From NCBI RefSeq assembly GCF_902686445.1, contig NC_062214.1:53293177-53357176 (forward strand): DNA of 64,000 nucleotides. The letters are read 5' to 3'. The notes below the pieces were generated by a model. It searched no databases and was not told the DNA's origin. It saw nothing but the letters and a program-made list of their open reading frames with translations. This document shows, piece by piece, positions 3,038 to 57,536 of the stretch (position 1 is its first letter; each line of letters opens with the position of its first letter). The DNA comes from Sciurus carolinensis (taxonomy: Eukaryota > Chordata > Mammalia > Rodentia > Sciuridae). Position numbers and translations under genes: made by a program.

Positions 3038-3120
3038 AGGGCTAGGCATATGGCTCAGTGGTAGAGCATTTTCCTGAATCTGAGGCCCTGGGTTTCATTC
3101 CCAGTATGATACACACACAG
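3038..3120 (+). repeat. ID SINE
   Basis: tRNA-derived ID element: 'atggctcagtggtagagca' carries the A-box region, and 'ccctgggtttcattcccag' the B-box region, followed by a short A-rich tail. Diverged, so an older copy. Confidence 0.85.
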
Positions 3121-4132: not shown

Positions 4133-4258
4133 TGATGTTGGTAGATAAGTAGGTCTTGAATTTATTTTGCAAACAAGACCTGTTCTATCTACCTTTTCAT
4201 TTAGGAGGCTAAAAGCAGAGTCAGCTTGACTTCAAGGACTCTATTTTCTTAGTCTCCA
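4133..4258 (-). ncRNA. SCARNA15: SCARNA15 (ACA45), H/ACA small Cajal body RNA
   Basis: The minus strand shows the full H/ACA architecture in about 126 bases. The 5' hairpin (4204-4257) pairs GGAG...CTAA against TTAG...CTCC arms. An H-box AAATGA follows at 4197-4202, then a long 3' hairpin (4139-4195) whose arms GGTAGATAG and CTTATCTACC and inner GGTCTTG and CAAGACC pair around the TTTGCAAAATAAATT loop. ACA then sits exactly three bases from the 3' end (4133-4138, ACATCA). The 3' hairpin matches the human ACA45 sequence I remember almost base for base. In human this RNA is intronic in SNHG21, is predicted to guide pseudouridylation of U2 snRNA in Cajal bodies, and its 3' hairpin is reported to be cut by Dicer into a microRNA-like product. 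The 5' boundary is uncertain by a few bases. I did not find a perfect CAB box. Confidence 0.93.
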
Positions 4259-4341
4259 GAATATGATCAAGCCCAGCATTTAAAATACTGCCCTTTAACA
4301 TGTCAAGGTATTAAAGGAAAGATAATTTATAACTTCAAGGG

Positions 4342-20104: not shown

Positions 20105-20645
20105 GAATACATGATGTTTCTGTTTGTACATGTCCTTCCTTCCTCCATTCTTGTCCCCCTCCCTAACCCTAACTCTAACCCTAACACTAACCCCTCCCAC
20201 CCCCCATTATGTGTCATCATCCACTTATTAGCGATATCATTCGTCCTTTGTTTTTTTGAGATTGACTTATCTCACTTAGCATGATATTCTCCAATTTCAT
20301 CCATTTGCCTGCAAATGCCATAATTTTGTCATTCTTTATGGCTGAGTAATATTCCATTGTATATATATACCACAGTTTCTTTATCCATTCATCAATTGAA
20401 GGACATCTAGGTTGGTTCCACAGTCTGGCTATTGTGAATTGAGCAGCTATGAACATTGATGTGGCTGTATCTCTGTAGTATGCTGATTTTAAGTCCTTTG
20501 GGTATAGGCCGAGGAGTAGGATAGCTGGGTCAAATGGTGGGTCTATTCCAAGTTTTCTAAGGAAACTCCACACTGCTTTCCAGAGTGGCTGCACTAATTT
20601 GCAGCGGTGGGGCATTTTTATAACTAGAAATATAACACTGATTTT
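20105..20645 (-). mobile_element. Younger L1 3' end (ORF2 C-terminus and start of 3' UTR), antisense
   Basis: On the minus strand an open stretch at 20217-20648 gives the L1 ORF2 C-terminal pattern: '[20 protein letters not shown]', 'RCPSIDEWIKKLWYIYTMEY', 'SAIKNDKIMAFAGKWMKLEN'. It is followed by a 3' UTR containing a degenerate telomere-like tract. The element is 5'-truncated. It forms an inverted repeat with 21001-21840. Confidence 0.9.
20160..20196 (-). repeat. Degenerate TTAGGG-like tract inside the L1 3' UTR
   Basis: The plus strand shows CCCTAACCCTAACTCTAACC and further CTAACAC/CTAACCCC units: about five imperfect telomere-type hexamers. Position and strand place them in the G-rich polypurine part of the L1 3' UTR rather than at a chromosome fusion point. 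Confidence 0.75.
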
Positions 20646-21000
20646 CACAGGCTGAACGAGGGATGTCTGGTGCCAAGAAAGAGCTAAGGTATGATTAATA
20701 CTACCAATCCTCTAGAAAGTAATTAGTGGCAGCTATTCTCGGGGTGAGGAAGTTTCTTGCTGGATTTCATGGCCAATAAGTAAGTCAAAGTACTTCATTT
20801 TTAATTTGCATATTTCTACTAGAGGCCTTTGATTGGAAAATTAGTTATTTTGCATGTTTGTCAATTGTATCTATATTCAGTAGAAAAGAAAAACATATGT
20901 TTTTTAAAAAAATTTCCTAAGTTTTTTTGTGTGTTAATATATAAGTTTCGGTGAAGGAGAGAAACCATTTCAAAAATCAGTCTTTGTGTTCTAAAATCTG

Positions 21001-33877: not shown

Positions 33878-34255
33878 ATGAAGGAAATAATAAACCAAAT
33901 AAAAAACTCAATGGAAAGCATCACCAAAAGACTAGACCACTTGGAAGACAGAACCTCAGACAATGAAGACAAAATATTTAATCTTGAAAATAAAGTTGCC
34001 CAAACAGAGAAGATGGTAAGAAATCATGAACAGAATCTCCAAGAACTATGGGACATCATGAAAAGACCAAATTTAAGAATTATTGGGATTGAGGAAGGCA
34101 CAGAGATACAAACCAAAGGAATGAACAACCTATTCAATGAAATAATATCAGAAAATTTCCCAAACCTGAAGAATGAAATAGAAAATCAAATACAAGAGGG
34201 TTACAGAACACAAATGCACAAAATCACAACAGATTCACACCAAGGCACATTATAA
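33878..34255 (+). pseudogene. L1/HAL1 ORF1 protein remnant (coiled coil and start of RNA-binding domain)
   Basis: Translation gives a heptad-rich N-terminal part ('ITKRLDHLEDRTSDNEDKIF', 'NLENKVAQTEKMVRNHEQNL') and then the 'RPNLRIIGIEEG' signature that opens the ORF1p RNA-recognition domain. A stop at 34253 and a shift into the 34255-34551 frame ('VQNKDRILKAMREKHQITHR') break the protein, so it is a remnant. Intact ORF1p trimerises through the coiled coil and binds its own RNA. Confidence 0.85.
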
Positions 34256-49478: not shown

Positions 49479-50534
49479 ATCAAATAAGTATTAAGACATA
49501 ACTGTCTGTGAAAAAAAATTTATCAAACAGTATTAAGGTGACAGTATTAACTGGAATTCTAGAAGAAGAGAAAGTAGAGCAGGAAAAAATGCAAAGTAAT
49601 AACGGCAAAAAATTGGTGAAACACAAAATTTTATAGATTAAAAAATTCCAGGGAACCATATGATAAATATGAAGAAAACCACTCTGAGGTTTTAAAGCAG
49701 TCAGAGATGACACATTATAATGTGGAGAACAACAATTTGAGTTGTTGATTTCTCACCTGGAACCATGAAGCTCAGACATTAATAGAGAAAAAACTTTGAA
49801 GAGACATAAGAAAAAGAATATTAATATAGAACATTGTGTCCAACAGGATGAATGAAGATAAAATAAAGGTGTTTTCAAATAAAACTAAAGAATTCAGCCG
49901 CAGCAGATCTAAACCACAAGAAATGCTGAAGAAAATTCTTTGGTCTGAAGGGAAATAAGATCAGAGAAAAATCAGACCTTCAAAAAGGAATGAGGAGGAT
50001 CAGAAATGGTAAATATCTGAATAAATATCAATGCCTTTTTTCTTCTCGCTTTCTTTAAAACAGTTTAAAGCAAAAATAACTCTTGTGAAGTGTAAAATGT
50101 ATGTAGTTAAAATCCATATGACAAACATAGTATAAAAGATGGTCAGGAGATAGTGGTAAATCAACCTATATTGTCATGAGGCTACATTTGACATGAAATT
50201 GTACAATATCATTTCTAGGTAGGCTGTGAAAAGTTAAGCAGTTATATTGTAATCCTCAGAGAAAACAGGTATAAAACAGGTATTTTTCAATAGATAATTA
50301 AAATGGAATTCTTTAAAATCTCCAAATAAGTCATAAAAAGATAAGAATGGGAGAACAAAGAAACAAAAATCAGAACAAAAAGATAGAAAACAAACAAATA
50401 ATGGTATACCTAAATATTACCATATCAATTATTACATTAACTATCTAAGGACTAAACAGAATAATAGGCAGAGAATGCCAATATGAATTTAAAAAGCAAG
50501 ACTCGACACAATGCACTTTAAATATTAAGACATA

Positions 50535-50645
50535 GGGGCTGGGGTTGTGGCTCAGAGGTAAAGCGCTTGCCTAGCATGTGTGAAGCCCTGGGTTTGATTT
50601 TCAGCACCACATATAAATGAATAAAATAAAGGTCCATCAACATCT
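50535..50645 (+). repeat. ID SINE
   Basis: 'gggctggggttgtggctcag' to 'ggtttgattttcagcaccac' with the 'aataaaataaaggtccatca' tail. Confidence 0.94.
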
Positions 50646-50722
50646 AATACATATATACATATATATAAAACATCATATATATGTATGTTTTAGAATATAT
50701 ATATATATATATATAGAAAAAA
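50646..50722. repeat. AT-rich microsatellite
   Basis: TA/ATAT units grow out of the tail of the ID at 50535; a purer (AT)n block lies at about 50695-50716. Confidence 0.85.
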
Positions 50723-50737
50723 AATTTAAGATATAAA

Positions 50738-50865
50738 GCCAGACACAATGGTGCATGCCTGTAGTCCCAGATACTGAGTAGGCTGAGAAGTGAAAGATCA
50801 CTAGGAACCAGAAGTTCCAGACTAGCCTGGGCAACATAGTGAGATACCAGTTCAAAAATGAAAAC
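50738..50865 (+). repeat. 7SL-derived monomer SINE (FLAM/proto-B1 type)
   Basis: 'atggtgcatgcctgtagtcc', 'gaagttccagactagcctgg' and 'gcaacatagtgagata' are the left-monomer pattern without an attached ID unit, unlike the B1-ID copies elsewhere. Likely an old copy. Confidence 0.8.
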
Positions 50866-51290
50866 CAATTTAAAGATAAATAGATTGAAAGTAAATGACT
50901 GGTAAATGATATAGATGTAAATAATGAACATACTATCAGATAAAATAGACTTCAGATCAGAAAGCATTACCCAAGGTACAGAGAAACATTCATAATGATA
51001 AAAATTCAATTCATCAGAAAGATTTAATAATCATAAAATGTTTATATACCTAATAATAAAATTTCAAAATCCAGAATGAAATTTGACAGAATTAAAGGGA
51101 GAAATATAAGATCCTGTAATCATGGTTAGAAGTCTTGACACCCCTCTCAACTGACAGAAAAACTGAACAAAATACCCCAATAAAGTCATAGATGATCTAA
51201 ACATTATCAACCACCTTGGCCTAATTGAGGTCTATAAAATACTATACCCTGATCTGCAAAATACATACTTGCAAGTGTGCATATTATTTC

Positions 51291-51669
51291 CACCAGTATA
51301 GACCATATGTAATCCATAAAATAAACCTCAATAAAACTAAAGGAATTGAAATCAGACATTCTCCTCTGACCATAGTAGGATAGGTATGAAGCATCTGAGC
51401 ACCCCGGAGGTCAGTGAAAGGTGAACAGCTGCTACTGAGAGCAGGTGCAAGTGGCAGTGACGGCACAAGCAGGGCTTGCATAGGGTTGAATAGCAGGAGG
51501 AGGGAAAAGAGGACACCAGTTACCCACCTTGTACCCAGCCTCAGTCTCTGGCTTCTCACCTACCCCCAGAGTTGTAGGAGGAGGGGTTGCTATTGTCAGA
51601 CTGGCTGGGGCACTGATATCAGAACAGGGCCCCAGGGCTTCCTGCTTGGCCCCTTTATCTGCCCAAGGG
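51291..51669 (+). promoter_or_regulatory. Probable 5' region of the LRAT/PLAAT-like gene
   Basis: GC content rises from about 51400. No TATA box or CpG island stands out. The sequence just before the start codon is pyrimidine-rich ('ctttatctgcccaagg'), and no other exon is clear, so the transcript start cannot be placed. Confidence 0.35.
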
Positions 51670-51744
51670 ATGAACAGCTTTTCCTCTCTGCTCTGGCCAC
51701 AGAAGAAGAAGATTCTACAAGGTGTGGTGCGTGGCCACTACGAG
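51670..51744 (+). CDS. LRAT/PLAAT-like gene, exon 1
   Basis: Encodes 25 residues, MNSFSSLLWPQKKKILQGVV and then RGHYE, ending in phase 0 at the donor GTGAGC. The start context (AAGGGATGA) is acceptable. Alternatively the pyrimidine-rich 'ttttcctctctgctctggccacag' at 51679-51702 could be an acceptor, which would make this an internal exon beginning AAGAAGAAG in the same frame with the true start further upstream. The 3.3-kb intron after it holds a MIR pair, a B1-ID and a CA repeat. Confidence 0.65.
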
Positions 51745-54438
51745 GTGAGCTGCTTGAATTGGGGGCTTATTTCAGGTAGGATCACTGTGTGCCAAGAGGG
51801 GACTGGTAACCAAAGTCTCTCGTGGAAAAAAAAAAAAAAAAAAGGTCACAGTAGGAGCTCTAACCTTGTTCTGGCTAAAAGATGGCTGGCTGGGAGCAGT
51901 AACCCCACAGCCTTGCCTTCCACAGAGGTACTCTTGCCCAGGGCTAGACTGAAGAGTGAGGGCAGGGGCTGGAAGTTCAGGCCAAATCATGGCCCAGGCC
52001 TGATATATTGCCTCCACTGGGTTGAGGTCCTGTAAAGGCCTGGTTCTGTGAGAAAGGCAGGGTCCTGTGCCACAAAGAGAATGTCACCCTGTGCCCAGTC
52101 ACAGGTACCCCCACTACTCTGTTCCCCTGAAAGCCTTAGCCAAGGTGAGAGGAGGGGAAGCTCAAACCCCAAGCAAGGAACCTCAGTGGGGTGGGCTGTG
52201 TTGTCAGGCCAAGTGCCCCAAAATTGGAATGCTTTGTCCCCTCTGCTCTTATAGCTCCAGGGCCTAGCTCCTTTTCCTTTCTTACAAAGGAACAGATGAC
52301 TCAGCCAAATGAAAGTCAAGTGGAAGGGTGACTGTTTTACCAGGTCAGGAAGGATATAGGGGGTGAGTCTTCCTGGTGTAGAATCTGGGGAAGGGAGACC
52401 CCTGTGCTAAGATTATGAGAGAGGGAGTCCTCCACAGTGGTTAAGGACACAGAAGCTAAGCCAGATCATCTCAACTTGAATCCTGATTCTGCCACTTTCT
52501 ATCTTGTAACCTTAGCAAATTCCCCAAACTTCAGTTTCCTCATATATAAAATAACAATGAGGACAATATCTCCTTCATGACATTGTTGTTAGGCCTTAGC
52601 ACAATTTCTGGCAATAAATGCTATTATCGTTATGAATTGAGAACCATGCATAGACCTAGATTCCCTACTGAAGGGGCATGTTGTGATCCAGACTCTAACT
52701 TAAAGTCCAGGAGCCCAGATGACAGTGGCCAAAGTGCCTCCCTGCCAAACCCCAGTGGGAACTTTTAGAGGTAAAGTCAGAGGTGGGGCCCTGCTCTGTA
52801 GGGCCTTTCCAGCTGGGTGATTCCCTTTGAGCTCTGGGGCAGGGGTCACAGGGAGGCCACCAGCCTCTGAAGGCCCATTGTTCTTCTCCTCTGAGCTGAG
52901 AAAGATGTATTCTCCCCACCCTCCTCTTGGCACCCAAATCTGCATACTCAGGAGCAGACCTTAGATAAACCAACCCTGCCCTGCCCTCCTGCCTTGTCCA
53001 GTGCTTCACAATAGCTCTCTGACGTCTATCCCTCCAACTTTATTGTCCCCAGTTCACAGATGAGGAAGTTGAGGTCCAGAGAGAGGAAGTGGCTTATTTT
53101 ATGTCCCACATAGAAAGGTAACATTGCCAGTACTAGGTTTCAGTCACAGACAGCATTCTAGCACAGACTCTTAGGCACACCAAATGCACAACCACGCACC
53201 AACACACAAACTCACTGATGCAGTGCACAGTTTTAAGGGGACAACAGAGGCAGAGAGTCAGGCAGTGACGGCTGTTTTTTTGTTTTGTTTTGTTTTTCTC
53301 CCTAGATGAGCTTCACATCCCAGGTAACTGAAACAGAAATCCTTGGCTCATCTTGTCTTCTTCCAGGCAGGTGCCTACTGCCTCAACAGTGGGAAGGACA
53401 GCTCATCTTCTTCCACAGCTGTAACCTCTGTTTGGCCCAGTAGGTTTTGAGGGAGAATGAAGAAGGAAGAAAGGTGCACTCCCTATGTTGGGAGAGCATG
53501 ACCCAAGACCAAAGTGTTGTTCACATAAGTTTCTCCCTGTGGTCTTTTGAGGTCAAGGGTAACCAAATGTCCAAGTTTTCCTGGGTTCCTGGGATGGAAG
53601 ACTTTCAACTTTACAATATGCAAAGTCAGACAGACTGGGATGAGTTGGTTACCTGAATTGTCCACAGTTCCCAGTCAGAAAATGAGGCTCACTCAGCAAT
53701 AAGCAGAGGATATTCTAGGCTGTGGCCAGGAGAGAAAGGAAGGGTCAAGGGAGACACATGGTAAACCATATAATGGCTAGTATTATGCAGCATGGTCTTG
53801 GACAGCTTCTCATTTAAATATGAGTCCTTCCTATCCAAGTCAGATATGCTGGAGTCAACCCTTTCTTTCTTCACAAAGATGCCCAGAGACCTGGTATAAT
53901 GGGTCACTTCCTGTTCCCAGTTCTTCTGTTAGCCTGGGGGAGCTTAGTATACTAGGCCCTACCTTCACTCCCTTTCCCAGTCTCTGAGGCCAAAGCTTAG
54001 GCATAGCTCATGCAATAGAGCCATCCTCCCAAGTCCCCAAAACCCTCTGTTCCCAGTAGAGATAGGAAAAACCTGAACTAAACTGCATTTCTCATTTTAT
54101 CTTGTGGAGGAAGAACATGTGACTGATGTTTAGTACAAGGGACACAGGACACAAAATTATGCAGGCATATGTTAGCTGTGTGCACTCTGGTAAAGTTTGT
54201 GAACCTCAGTTTCTTTATCCTAAAAATAGTGATATTAGCCAGATATGGTGGTGTAACCTGTAATCCCAGCAACTTGGGAGGCTGGGGCAGCAGGATTGTC
54301 AAGTTCAAGGCCAGCCCAGGCAATTTAGTGAGACCCTGTCTCAAAATATAAAGGACCGGGGATGTAACTCAGTGGCAGTGATTGCCTAGCATGTGCGAGG
54401 CCCTGGATTTGATCCCCAGCAACACAACACACACACAC

Positions 54439-54485
<47 letters not shown>

Positions 54486-56603
54486 GATACTTTACCCATC
54501 TTGTATTAAGGATCCAGTGAGCCACTACTCAATAGATATTTGCTGCCAAGGTTGCTGGACTTGGGAGGAGGGACCTGTCCTGGGTCCAGATCTCACTTAG
54601 GTTTTCCTCTTTCTTCAGGTCTCCTGCTCAGTACAGGTACCAGCTGATATCCAGTCCCCAGTGTTGCTTCCAGGAATGGCAAGATGGGAGATGGTTGGGG
54701 AAAGGGATCCAGGGGCAGGGGAAGAGAATAGAATGACCAAATTTTGAGATGAGAAGACAAAGGTGGATGGAAGGGAGGTCCTATTAGCTGGAAACTGAGG
54801 GGTTCTCGGGTAGCTCAAGGCCAGGATAATCTGGGATGTCCAGGCCTCTGGAGTGTCGGTGGGGCGGGGGGTGCAAATGTGGGGCAAAGAAGACATTCTG
54901 CCTAGAGTCCAGTTCCAAATCAGGTCTTCCTGAACCGTGGGCTCAGGTGCCATCTATGATCAGTGGAATGATCCAGCTCCTCTTCAACCAGGTCTGTGCA
55001 AACACCCTGAAGACTATTCCCTTTCTCCCCCCAGGCAGTGACTGGGGCATCTACCACCATTCAGTTCTTCCTCTCAGAAGCTTTCCTGGGTCAGCACTTT
55101 GAAGCTGTGGAGTTGGAACAAGGTGATCCTGAGCCTGGAGACCTCTTCCTGTTTAGGCTGCGGTCCCCAACTGGACGCTGGTGTGGGGCCCATGTGGGTG
55201 TATACTGTGGCCATGGAGAAATCATTCACTTTGAGGGTGAGTGCCTCCAGTTGAAATTAAGGCTCAAGTGTGCAAAGAGAGGTTGCCCCATTCAAGCATA
55301 CCCCACCAGTGGGTGGGCTACATGAAAATGCAGGCTGTGGTCCTGGGCTGGTGGTACGGGTCTCTGAAGATAGGGGATTGGGCAGTCAGCATATGGGGCC
55401 CAGGGACACCAGATCCAAGGAAATACAAGTGTGGGGGCCACAAGGTATCAAAGATGGTTCTGATGTGTACCTGGCCTGCAATCCCTATAGGCAAGAAACC
55501 TGGCAGTTGTGGGCCACATAGGTTTCTGGGCTCCTGGGAAGGAGTTGTATGCAAACAGGGGCAGGGCCCAATGCTGCGCTCCCGCTCCCTCTGGCGAGTG
55601 CTGCGAAGGCGAGGTGGCATTAACCGCACATTGCTGGAGCTCCGTGTGCGCGAAGCTATGGACACAGACCCACCTCCCTATCATCCCACACGCAACAACT
55701 GTGTGCACTTTGCACTGCACCTGCTCGGCTTGGACAGGAACCCCAACTCGGTGAGCACAACCCAGCTACTCATGTAGAATCCCCCTCCAGCTTCAGGACC
55801 TGCTAACAGCCTTACCAACTGCTCTGGCAAAATTCAGGCCCTCCCCCTCTCTACTCCACTGAGGCCTCATTCCTCCAAACTCAAGATCTGCTTTACTCTG
55901 GCAGGTCCAAAACCCTCAGAACCAAATAGGCCAAGCTAGTTGTTAAAGTTCCAGGCTGAGGCTGGGATTGTGGCTCAGTGGTAGAGTGCTTGCCTAGCAT
56001 GAGTGAGGCACTGGGTTGGATCCCCAGCATTGCATTAAAAAATAATAATAATAAAATAAAAAATAAAGTCCTAGGCTCTTTGAAACCCTTTTGTGCCCAT
56101 TCCAAGTAGGCCCCAGGCCCCAACCCACAGATCCTGGCCACATGTATTTACTTTAGCCTATCAACCTCCAAGTCAGGTCCAATTTCCATCCTAGTCCTGG
56201 TCAAGCCCCTGTTATTCTCATTCCTGCAATAAAACCTTTCTACTGAGCTAAGCTCCACCTTTCTGAGCCCCATTCATTTCCAACCAGGCCAACCAATTCT
56301 GGCCTGGGAGACTTCAGACTCAGCTCTTAGGAACTCTCCCACTCTCCAAGCCCAGCCAAGAAACTTCAGTCACCCAACCTGATGCTCAACTAGATCCAAT
56401 CCCTTTCCCAAGCCTGGTTCACTACTTTCCCTCCGATCCAGACCTTCCTTGCTTGGCCCTTGGGGTATTTCAGACCTTGGGAACTAGAGGCATCATATCA
56501 TCCAGGAGTCCTGGCAATTGCACCAGACCCTAAACTGGTCTCTTCCATTTTCCTTTATTTTTAGGCATTGGTGGACCTGGAGCTAACCATGGGTGAGGCA
56601 TGA
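51670..56603 (+). CDS. LRAT/PLAAT-superfamily gene, four coding exons, intact 191-residue product
   Basis: Exons 51670-51744, 55035-55236, 55491-55750 and 56565-56603 join in phase (0, 1, 0) into a 576-base frame with stop. The fold signature is PGDLF at residues 59-63 (PLAATs start PGDLIE), a first His at 78 in GAHVGVYCG, a second His at 90 in EIIHFE and Cys 163 in NNCVHFA (family NCEHFV). His-His spacing is 12, as in PLAAT3, and His78-Cys163 is 85 against about 90. Family members form an acyl-thioester on the Cys and act as phospholipase A or N/O-acyltransferase on phospholipids. It differs from PLAATs in a longer N-terminus (about 58 residues before PGD), Glu replaced by Val after the Cys, and no hydrophobic C-terminal anchor. 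It ends 0.8 kb before AP3B2 on the same strand. Catalysis is inferred, substrate unknown. Confidence 0.82.
51745..52425. other. Intron 1 of the LRAT/PLAAT-like gene, first part
   Basis: GC-rich unique-looking sequence. A poly(A) run lies at 51827-51843. Overlapping open frames on both strands (for example 51987-52319 minus, 52048-52267 plus) have no flanking splice logic or family match. Confidence 0.4.
52430..52628 (+). repeat. MIR SINE
   Basis: Good MIR match: 'acagtggttaaggacacaga', 'atcctgattctgccactttc', 'cttcagtttcctcatatata' and 'tctggcaataaatgctatta'. Intronic. Confidence 0.9.
53030..53165 (-). repeat. MIR SINE fragment, antisense
   Basis: 'ccagttcacagatgaggaag', 'gaggtccagagagaggaagt' and a degraded 'gtactaggtttcagtcacag' follow reversed MIR order. 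Confidence 0.75.
53166..54160. other. Intron 1, middle part
   Basis: One striking acceptor/donor pair ('ttttgtttttctccctag' then 18 bases then 'gtaact', about 53305-53324) could be a micro-exon, but it is not needed to keep the frame and I do not call it. Otherwise no features. Confidence 0.35.
54162..54232 (+). repeat. MIR fragment
   Basis: 'gttagctgtgtgcactctgg' and 'cctcagtttctttatcctaa' match the MIR core. Confidence 0.65.
54237..54423 (+). repeat. B1-ID composite SINE
   Basis: 'tggtggtgtaacctgtaatc', 'gagaccctgtctcaaaatat', 'ggggatgtaactcagtggca' and 'tggatttgatccccagcaac'. Its tail has become a CA microsatellite. Confidence 0.94.
54424..54483 (+). repeat. (CA)n microsatellite
   Basis: About 60 bases of nearly pure CA with one CG interruption, grown from the tail of the preceding SINE. 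Confidence 0.97.
54484..55034. other. Intron 1, last part
   Basis: Contains splice-like motifs around 54618-54636 and 54945-54992, but neither segment improves the frame. The acceptor used in the model is 'ctttctccccccag' at 55021-55034. Confidence 0.4.
55035..55236 (+). CDS. LRAT/PLAAT-like gene, exon 2 (PGD motif and both catalytic histidines)
   Basis: Acceptor 'ctttctccccccag' and donor GGTGAGTG. Encodes residues 26-92 plus one base of codon 93. Carries the PGDLFLFRL strand, a WCGAHVGVY motif with the first His and EIIHFE with the second. A weaker internal acceptor (55066-55078) could shorten the N-terminal part. The 202-base exon is the clearest coding exon of the gene. Confidence 0.87.
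55491..55750 (+). CDS. LRAT/PLAAT-like gene, exon 3 (catalytic cysteine)
   Basis: Acceptor 'cctgcaatccctatag', donor TCG|GTGAGC. Completes Gly93 and encodes residues 94-179, including an Arg-rich segment (RSRSLWRVLRRR, 122-133) and the active-site block YHPTRNNCVHFALHLLGL with Cys163. The intron before it is only 254 bases. The frame stays open through that intron's second half, which fits but does not prove the acceptor. Confidence 0.85.
55955..56062 (+). repeat. ID SINE in intron 3
   Basis: 'gctgggattgtggctcagtg' to 'gggttggatccccagcattg' and an AAT-rich tail. Confidence 0.94.
56565..56603 (+). CDS. LRAT/PLAAT-like gene, last exon
   Basis: Acceptor 'tcctttatttttag'. Encodes ALVDLELTMGEA and stop TGA, in phase with exon 3. 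PLAATs usually end in a hydrophobic membrane anchor; this acidic tail does not, so the product should be soluble or peripherally bound. A 3' UTR of about 60 bases follows. Confidence 0.75.
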   Translation, partial: ALVDLELTMGEA

Positions 56604-56647
56604 CCTTGTGCCCTCCTGGATGGCCAGAGGGGGTTTCAGAAAGGGTC

Positions 56648-56653
56648 ATTAAA
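56648..56653 (+). terminator. Poly(A) signal ATTAAA of the LRAT/PLAAT-like gene
   Basis: ATTAAA lies 44 bases after the stop codon and is followed by a T/G-rich element ('gttcgttgtcctttctggtt', 56681-56700), the usual arrangement for cleavage and polyadenylation. Confidence 0.75.
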
Positions 56654-56659
56654 GTATTT

Positions 56660-57135
56660 CCCAAAGCTTAATTAGAGAGTTCGTTGTCCTTTCTGGTTCG
56701 TCTCCCACCTGTCTGCCGAAAGCCCACTAAGCGTTCCTTGGTGCTTGCCCATAAATTCCACCTCTTCCAAGAAGCTACTCAGCTTCCCACTTAAAAGGGA
56801 AGACGCCATCAGAGAACCCCAGGTTTTCTACAAAAGACAGGACAGGAAAGGAAGCATTCTTAGGTCTCTGTTGCTGGTCTTCTGTGCAGTGCTTCCTTCC
56901 CCTCTAGGCCTGGGAGTACTGCCTTCCTTTCAACCCCTTTGCCCTTTCCCTCCATTTCAGGGTTGTGTGGAACCCCTAGAGGTCGTTCCGTCGAGGCCGG
57001 ATGATCAGGGATGGGTGAGGACGTTGTGCACTCTTCCACCCTCAGAAGGGTGTTCCATCATCAAAGTCACAGACTCACACGCCCCAAGATGTGGAGGTGC
57101 TTCAGGTCCCTTTAAAGGGCTGGAACTAGCCTTCC
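56660..57135. other. Short intergenic space before AP3B2
   Basis: Unique-looking sequence. The plus-strand open frame at 56745-57146 lacks splice or family support. Confidence 0.4.
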
Positions 57136-57423
57136 AGGAAGGGTGATTTCCGCGGGATTGGGGCGGGGCAGACGCTGCAGCCCCTCCTCACCCGCCCCCT
57201 AGCTGACACGCCCTGAGCTCCGCAGGCGCTGGTGCCTTTAAGAACCTCCGAGCGCGGCCCGGAGTGATAAATCCGAGCGCAGCCTCCACTGTTGCAGATT
57301 GCAGTTCTGCAGAGCCGGGGCTGCGCTGCCGATTCCGCCTAGGTCTTGCGCCCCCTTCCACGACCCCCGCCGGACTCCGGCCGTGCGGCCTCCTCCCCAG
57401 CGAAGCCTTCTCCCAGCTGCCCT

Positions 57424-57536
57424 ATGTCGACCGCCCCTGCCTACAGTGAAGACAAGGGCGGCTCCGCTGGCCCTGGGGAACCTGAGTATGGCCACGACCC
57501 GGCGAGCGGCGGCATCTTCTCCTCCGACTACAAGCG
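57424..57536 (+). CDS. AP3B2: AP3B2 coding exon 1 (AP-3 complex subunit beta-2)
   Basis: Starts [20 protein letters not shown] and continues through [17 protein letters not shown] plus the first two bases of an Arg codon, then the donor GTGAGG. It matches the human AP3B2 N-terminus I remember except for a Thr in place of Ala at position 3. AP3B2 is the neuron-specific large beta subunit of the AP-3 adaptor, which sorts cargo from endosomes into synaptic vesicles and related organelles. This exon is the disordered leader before the adaptin trunk, which begins in the next exon (HDDLKEML...), not in this window. The exon ends in phase 2. A CpG island and a REST-like element surround it. Confidence 0.95.

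Follow-up and report, generated by a model that had tools for sequence, protein, structure and literature searches.

A complete squirrel gene upstream of an AP-3 beta gene is the probable orthologue of mouse BC048679 and is predicted to encode a divergent LRAT/PLAAT-type enzyme

The PLAAT enzymes make precursors of N-acyl-ethanolamines, degrade lens organelles and contribute to the control of lipolysis (PMC4624172, PMC10318531, PMC10760033). PLAAT3 has the catalytic triad Cys113-His23-His35, and an acyl-thioester of LRAT has been detected by mass spectrometry (PMC4624172); the third catalytic residue of LRAT is a His (CHH), and six LRAT-like homologues are described in humans (PMC10318531). 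PLAAT1-4 have a C-terminal hydrophobic helix, whereas PLAAT5 (HRASLS5) is without one, is mainly cytosolic and has dominant N-acyltransferase activity (PMC4624172). Permuted NlpC/P60 enzymes share a hydrophobic pocket and a conserved Tyr, while the NlpC/P60 family (C40) has its Cys before the His residues, and PPPDE1, of the PPPDE/DESI family (C97), has Phe where the proteins described here have their second His (PMC3142127). We have analysed a 64,000-nucleotide stretch of the Sciurus carolinensis genome, C2:53293177-53357176 (the window), and a gene within it that, in our judgement, is probably the squirrel orthologue of mouse BC048679, with five coding exons encoding a 178-residue predicted soluble thiol acyltransferase/phospholipase of the LRAT/PLAAT superfamily.

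An initial annotation of the window had joined four exons into a 191-residue frame. The GT-AG borders, the single frame and the TGA at 56603 all stand; however, two coding exons of 18 nucleotides (nt) each had been missed (Table 1). As both are multiples of three, the frame stays open when they are skipped, and they easily escape a first model. Both are in phase and have clean splice borders (tag/ATGAGCTTCACATCCCAG/gta and cag/GTCTCCTGCTCAGTACAG/gta), and the peptides that they encode match the N-termini of a Marmota protein, P0002 (MSFTSQVTSSVQ), and of the 217-residue P0003 (MSFASQVSCSVQ): MSFTSQ is identical in P0002 and reads MSFASQ in P0003, and VSCSVQ is identical in P0003. The corrected coding sequence yields 178 residues with a triad of His65, His77 and Cys150, and the main frame, as its relatives show, starts at MSF. 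The 58-residue N-terminal lead described initially was a product of the model without the two small exons, and the exon with which that model opened can no longer be taken as the coding start, being probably a leader or 5' untranslated region. Its 25 residues resemble the leaders of Castor P0005 and Peromyscus P0031; since cattle P0047 reads the counterpart in another frame, it seems unlikely to be conserved as a coding exon. An isoform that uses it is possible, and an in-frame reading of 203 residues is present.

P0003 is encoded by a 980-base contig of a close relative that reads MSFASQ-VSCSVQ-TVTGAS...FEG-KKPG, and it is identical to the window protein at 158 of 166 residues across coding exons 1-4 and at only 4 of 12 in coding exon 5. 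Because the stretch covered by this contig spans 2445 nt of squirrel genomic DNA, the contig most likely represents a spliced transcript that has kept its last intron; that it might be a processed copy is an alternative we favour less. A decaying or non-coding squirrel locus, either a pseudogene or a long non-coding RNA, would be in keeping with the damaged appearance of the cattle, camel, elephant and tamarin models. In the squirrel, however, frame and splice sites are intact and all 67 residues of coding exon 3 are identical in Sciurus vulgaris (P0053), and with a spliced contig in a close relative and a family extending from birds to rodents we regard decay as very improbable. We conclude that the locus is a real, complete and conserved gene.

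The Pfam, solved-structure and genome searches and the first of the protein searches used the 191-residue model. This first protein search returned 101 proteins at E<=1, and a best E of 2.5e-102 excludes chance resemblance; two further protein searches gave 246 matches at E<=0.01 (120 of the 246 listed) and 62 at E<=1. Among the matches listed, relatives occur in placentals and marsupials and, among birds, in lineages from ostrich to songbirds, and they go under 'uncharacterized', 'hypothetical' or domain names, with LOC symbols in many species; at least three listed homologues (P0030, P0038 and P0114) are named 'cDNA sequence BC048679'. Quantitative PCR primers for mouse BC048679 (PMC8088568) translate to VYCGQGE and, reversed, HPTSSNCV, which are the catalytic strand and the Cys motif of the squirrel gene family. 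On the basis of these primer-encoded motifs and of the homologue names, and with a single copy in the squirrel genome, the squirrel gene is probably the orthologue of mouse BC048679 (NM_183143); compared through the motifs, the two have shown no defining difference. The gene is thus not new. It had been called unnamed and possibly overlooked, which in the strict sense it is not, as there is a mouse symbol, there are models in many mammals and birds, and there are mouse expression data. What it carries is a placeholder symbol, and it is functionally uncharacterised in the literature naming BC048679: no functional study was found in papers naming BC048679, NM_183143 or chicken LOC415324, and literature searches linking the gene with AP3B2, FSD2, pseudogene or LRAT found no paper on it.

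Copy number and domain content vary among the relatives. Hamster and vole models (among P0103, P0004, P0009, P0104, P0133 and P0160) have two tandem LRAT-type domains, and more diverged copies are present, two of which, P0160 (lemming) and P0133, have Gln for the second His; tandem domains and diverged copies together look like a cricetid expansion. Several bird models (P0106, P0107) append a second, more divergent domain, GDIVLF...KHVGIYCGDGEVMHF...NNCNHFALWLLGL, which is probably a neighbouring bird paralogue.

The view that the squirrel genome holds here a complete gene for a divergent enzyme of LRAT/PLAAT type is upheld by the intact frame and splice sites and by the triad and predicted fold of its product, and the two His residues do lie 12 apart with the Cys inside NNCVHFA, as first annotated. 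For the window protein PF04970 (LRAT) ranks first in Pfam, with a score short of the cut-off; of 32 homologues, 31 match it at E<=1, the best at 3.5e-7. When the family was aligned with seven squirrel PLAATs by HHalign (95.6%, E 1.2e-8), the triad fell in register at 22% identity. An AlphaFold2 model of the Marmota orthologue is folded like a PLAAT catalytic domain; the top eight matches by VIA are all PLAAT2, PLAAT3 or PLAAT4, with 19-23% identity in the fold alignments to PLAATs. Of the 129 homologues that could be scored, 120 have the complete Cys-His-His triad, permuted and with the Cys near the C-terminus, and the second His is kept in 139 of the 148 that reach that position (gaps counted as misses). 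The residue seven positions ahead of the Cys is Tyr in every row of a 57-row alignment (structure alignment A3, of 57 chosen proteins), and the PLAATs have their Tyr at the same -7 spacing. The domain order is that of the LRAT superfamily, including LRAT and LRATD1/2. From PLAAT1-5 the window protein is set apart by an identity of about 20%, by an N-terminal segment of about 45 residues, and by its motifs: GAHVGVYCG replaces HWAIYVGDG, and the NCEHFV signature gives way to NNCVHFA in the squirrel and NCI/VHFA in birds. As an aside, an amphipathic N-terminal helix was considered as a membrane anchor and rejected, its moment of 0.20 being equalled by 25% of shuffles.

The intron structure, compared by donor sequence, is also that of the PLAATs. 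Each of the eight squirrel PLAAT loci has, in phase 0, a GT at a distance of exactly 51 nt from where the Cys codon starts and, in phase 1, a GTRAG donor 16 nt from the first base of the codon for the second His. In the window gene, coding exon 4 ends at an identical 51-nt phase-0 position, and the phase-1 donor is 10 nt from the first base of the His codon. The squirrel loci that we take to be LRAT and LRATD2 (L012 and L013; the name PLAAT1 is likewise one that we assigned) are uninterrupted between the His and Cys motifs. The shared donors are the most telling independent evidence for an affinity with PLAATs. For the tree we used 18 chosen of 167 homologues, the window gene, two bird second domains, seven squirrel PLAATs, LRAT and LRATD2; PLAATc, one of the eight squirrel PLAAT loci, was left out, as its matched stretch contains a stop. 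The 21 family rows part from the nine PLAAT/LRAT/LRATD2 rows with a support of 100/100 on long branches of this unrooted tree, in which LRAT and LRATD2, on far branches, group within the PLAATs, and the second domains of birds group within the family rows; monophyly is rejected neither for the PLAATs (approximately unbiased test, p-AU 0.34) nor for the family (p-AU 0.54). In this tree the gene does not sit inside a known PLAAT clade, in keeping with the separate branch suggested initially. Were it a copy that arose recently from a known PLAAT gene, the common intron donors and fold would be expected; the tree split, the long branch and the low identities given above contradict this, and we find a recent duplication scarcely credible. 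We conclude from these comparisons that architecture and fold make the gene PLAAT-type, while its sequence places it on a branch of its own. The squirrel PLAAT cluster itself (C11:11748684-12036382) holds at least seven loci, of which PLAATb, PLAATd and PLAATe are near-identical and PLAATc has an in-frame TGA.

A triad and Tyr in PLAAT order and spacing make thiol-based acyl transfer from a lipid ester the best prediction of function. We infer catalysis, a lipid substrate and a soluble state for the window protein by analogy with described enzymes, of which PLAAT5 may be a fair model. As in PLAAT3, His65, oriented by His77, would deprotonate Cys150, and the resulting thiolate would attack a glycerophospholipid at its sn-1 or sn-2 acyl ester, leaving the acyl chain bound to the enzyme as a thioester. 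Subsequent transfer of the chain to water would amount to phospholipase A activity, and transfer to an amine or hydroxyl acceptor to N- or O-acyltransferase activity.

A number of observations weigh against this assignment. No enzyme assay was found in the literature naming BC048679. The maximum C-terminal 19-residue hydropathy is 0.51, so that the membrane helix of PLAAT1-4 is absent, as had been noted initially, and PLAAT3 is inactive without its own C-terminal helix (PMC4624172). The profile check proposed with the initial annotation named the LRAT family and yet left the window protein, at 20.8 bits, below the curated cut-off of 24.3, as is the Marmota protein; the Foldseek comparison gave a best E of 2.7e-3 and no match at E<=0.001; and the first donor lies two codons closer to the His than in the PLAATs. 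NLPC_P60 also matches 31 of the 32 homologues, NlpC/P60 peptidases ranked over PLAATs in the sequence searches of solved structures, and a triad residue is missing in nine of the 129 homologues. Two mouse datasets and a motif scan, described below, belong here too.

The protein could instead be a permuted papain-fold isopeptidase or lipoprotein amidase, of the PPPDE/DESI or YiiX/C92 type, and not a phospholipid acyltransferase. It has the permuted papain fold of PPPDE/DESI proteins and their N-C-x-H-F motif, and it has the PGD strand and HVGxYxGxGxxIH motif of NlpC/P60 proteins. However, the Cys follows the His residues in the window protein, an order that the LRAT profile covers; the best E for LRAT compares with 8.4e-5 for NLPC_P60; PLAATs top the fold comparison; the third residue is His, as in LRAT and not as in PPPDE1; and the intron donors are PLAAT-type. 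PF05903 (PPPDE) matches two of the 32 homologues (best E 0.017) and did not match the window protein in the Pfam scan. DESI/PPPDE structures are not in the list of fold matches, to which we give no excluding weight. We consider such a peptidase or amidase unlikely. An NCBIfam scan of three homologues gave NlpC/P60-type names only (one of them 'enterotoxin'), far below cut-off, and was set aside as a name effect of the common strand motif.

A catalytically dead LRAT-domain scaffold, comparable with LRATD1/2, is improbable in our view. The squirrel LRATD2 locus, with Ser for Cys (NSESF), and the nine triad-deficient homologues are what speaks for it, against a triad that is intact in the window gene and in the other 120 homologues and a Tyr that is invariant at -7. 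The nine are from camel (Cys to Gly), rhinoceros (first His to Pro), elephant, brushtail possum, raccoon dog, arctic fox, a lemming copy and two further sources, and some may be assembly or model errors.

Expression data for mouse BC048679 bear on the preferred reading, that of a thiol acyltransferase/phospholipase. After 21 weeks of high-fat diet the gene is first by significance in gastrocnemius (log2 fold change 2.81, adjusted P 8e-44), in a dataset that is enriched for fatty-acid degradation and PPAR signalling and in which other genes have larger fold changes (PMC12982024). It is one of six up-regulated genes tabulated for bone of high-fat-diet/streptozotocin mice (logFC 2.92; PMC10115794), and Angptl4, Acot1 and Fbp2 appear both in that table and in the gastrocnemius list (PMC10115794, PMC12982024). 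Expression is higher by log2 2.28 in muscle of active mice (PMC4339580); the two datasets mentioned as adverse are soleus of exercised KK-Ay mice, with a -3.5-fold change (PMC5542511), and ischaemic muscle, where the gene is in a Venn list and the difference is not significant (PMC12013106). The ESR1-knockout oviduct has a 21-fold increase, or 222-fold with pregnant mare serum gonadotropin (PMC4725743); in uterus, where expression varies with the stage of pregnancy, values fall from 45.5 to 5.5 reads per kilobase per million between day 3 and day 4 (PMC5131473), and in uterine epithelium glandular expression exceeds luminal (PMC6418183). A 1.55-fold difference is given for lens (PMC3084220). 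In muscle, these data suggest that lipids are remodelled under a load of fatty acids; in the oviduct they suggest expression that depends on ESR1, and in the uterus expression in gland epithelium; PPAR control we infer from the co-listing with PPAR-type genes. A scan of 49500-57450 for response elements of PPAR (PPRE), oestrogen receptor (ERE) and oestrogen-related receptor (ERRE) yielded nothing usable: 18 direct-repeat-1-like sites against 5.8 in crude shuffles (best with two mismatches), five ERRE-like against 1.2, and 52 ERE against 47. The scan was given no weight, as the shuffle control ignores dinucleotides and short interspersed nuclear elements (SINEs).

No named catarrhine protein is among the 101 or the 62 matches, the latter from a search seeded with the tamarin protein, nor among the 120 listed of the 246. 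The named primates found were tamarin (P0081, without the His-His segment) and lemur (P0090, an exon-3 fragment with both His residues). Because no named catarrhine protein appears in these searches, which is consistent with the absence of such a named gene upstream of human AP3B2 suggested initially, we consider it likely that the gene has been lost in humans. Among bovids, cattle P0047 is without the segment of the second His, a similar fragment, P0163, reads that segment in a shifted frame, and a very similar 87-residue fragment, P0164, is intact; a recent loss of the gene in some bovids is possible. Tentatively, and as something possible rather than probable, we propose that the family is a sixth, amniote-wide PLAAT-type branch, a soluble Cys-thiol acyltransferase that would remodel phospholipid or N-acyl-lipid pools under fatty-acid load, induced in mice by high-fat diet together with PPAR-type genes and under hormonal control in oviduct and uterus, with independent losses in humans (or in all anthropoids), in camel and in some bovids. 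If this is true, mouse diet studies include a lipid enzyme that humans lack, and a human lineage without the gene would be a species difference relevant to the translation of mouse diet and fertility work. With its catalytic site intact, its function unassigned and its mouse member ranked first by significance in one muscle dataset on high-fat diet, this ancient extra branch is a candidate for a missing enzyme that can be tested directly.

The features of the gene are collected in Table 1; the hexamer past the stop codon lies where it was first placed.

Table 1. Coordinates of the BC048679-type gene in the window
Feature	Position	Strand	Remarks
Exon 1 of the initial annotation (MNSFSSLLWPQKKKILQGVVRGHYE)	51670..51744	+	donor GAG/gtgagc; 25 residues; probably 5' untranslated region or alternative leader
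Coding exon 1, 18 nt, start codon, MSFTSQ	53306..53323	+	tag/ATGAGC...CAG/gtaact
Coding exon 2, 18 nt, VSCSVQ	54619..54636	+	cag/GTCTCC...CAG/gtacca
Coding exon 3, ends in phase 1	55035..55236	+	N-terminal helix, PGDLFLF strand, GAHVGVYCG (His65), IIHFEG (His77)
Coding exon 4, ends in phase 0	55491..55750	+	rest of domain, Tyr143, NNCVHFA (Cys150)
Coding exon 5, 12 codons and TGA	56565..56603	+	no membrane helix by hydropathy
ATTAAA, polyadenylation-signal-like hexamer	56648..56653	+	44 bases past the stop

The gene is single copy in the squirrel genome. A complete SCARNA15 lies on the minus strand at 4133-4259 (150 bits), and an AP3B1_C-family exon lies 23 kb past the end of the window on the same strand as the gene, which supports its annotated position upstream of an AP-3 beta gene; the first exon of what we take to be AP3B2 would be at about 57425. 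These neighbours fit the SCARNA15-AP3B2 arrangement of human 15q25, with which the SCARNA15 match fixes the synteny. AP3B1_C-family matches are also found in long unbroken stretches on contigs C41, C93, C296 and C38, one of them with stops, and look like processed copies of an AP-3 beta gene. Nine tRNA-family matches of 30-40 bits (at 3047, 11357, 12515, 23304, 38357, 38506, 46702, 59251 and 61747) are most likely tRNA-derived rodent SINEs, and open reading frames at 20217-20648 (minus strand) and 33878-34255 (plus strand) resemble fragments of LINE-1 ORF2 and ORF1, respectively.

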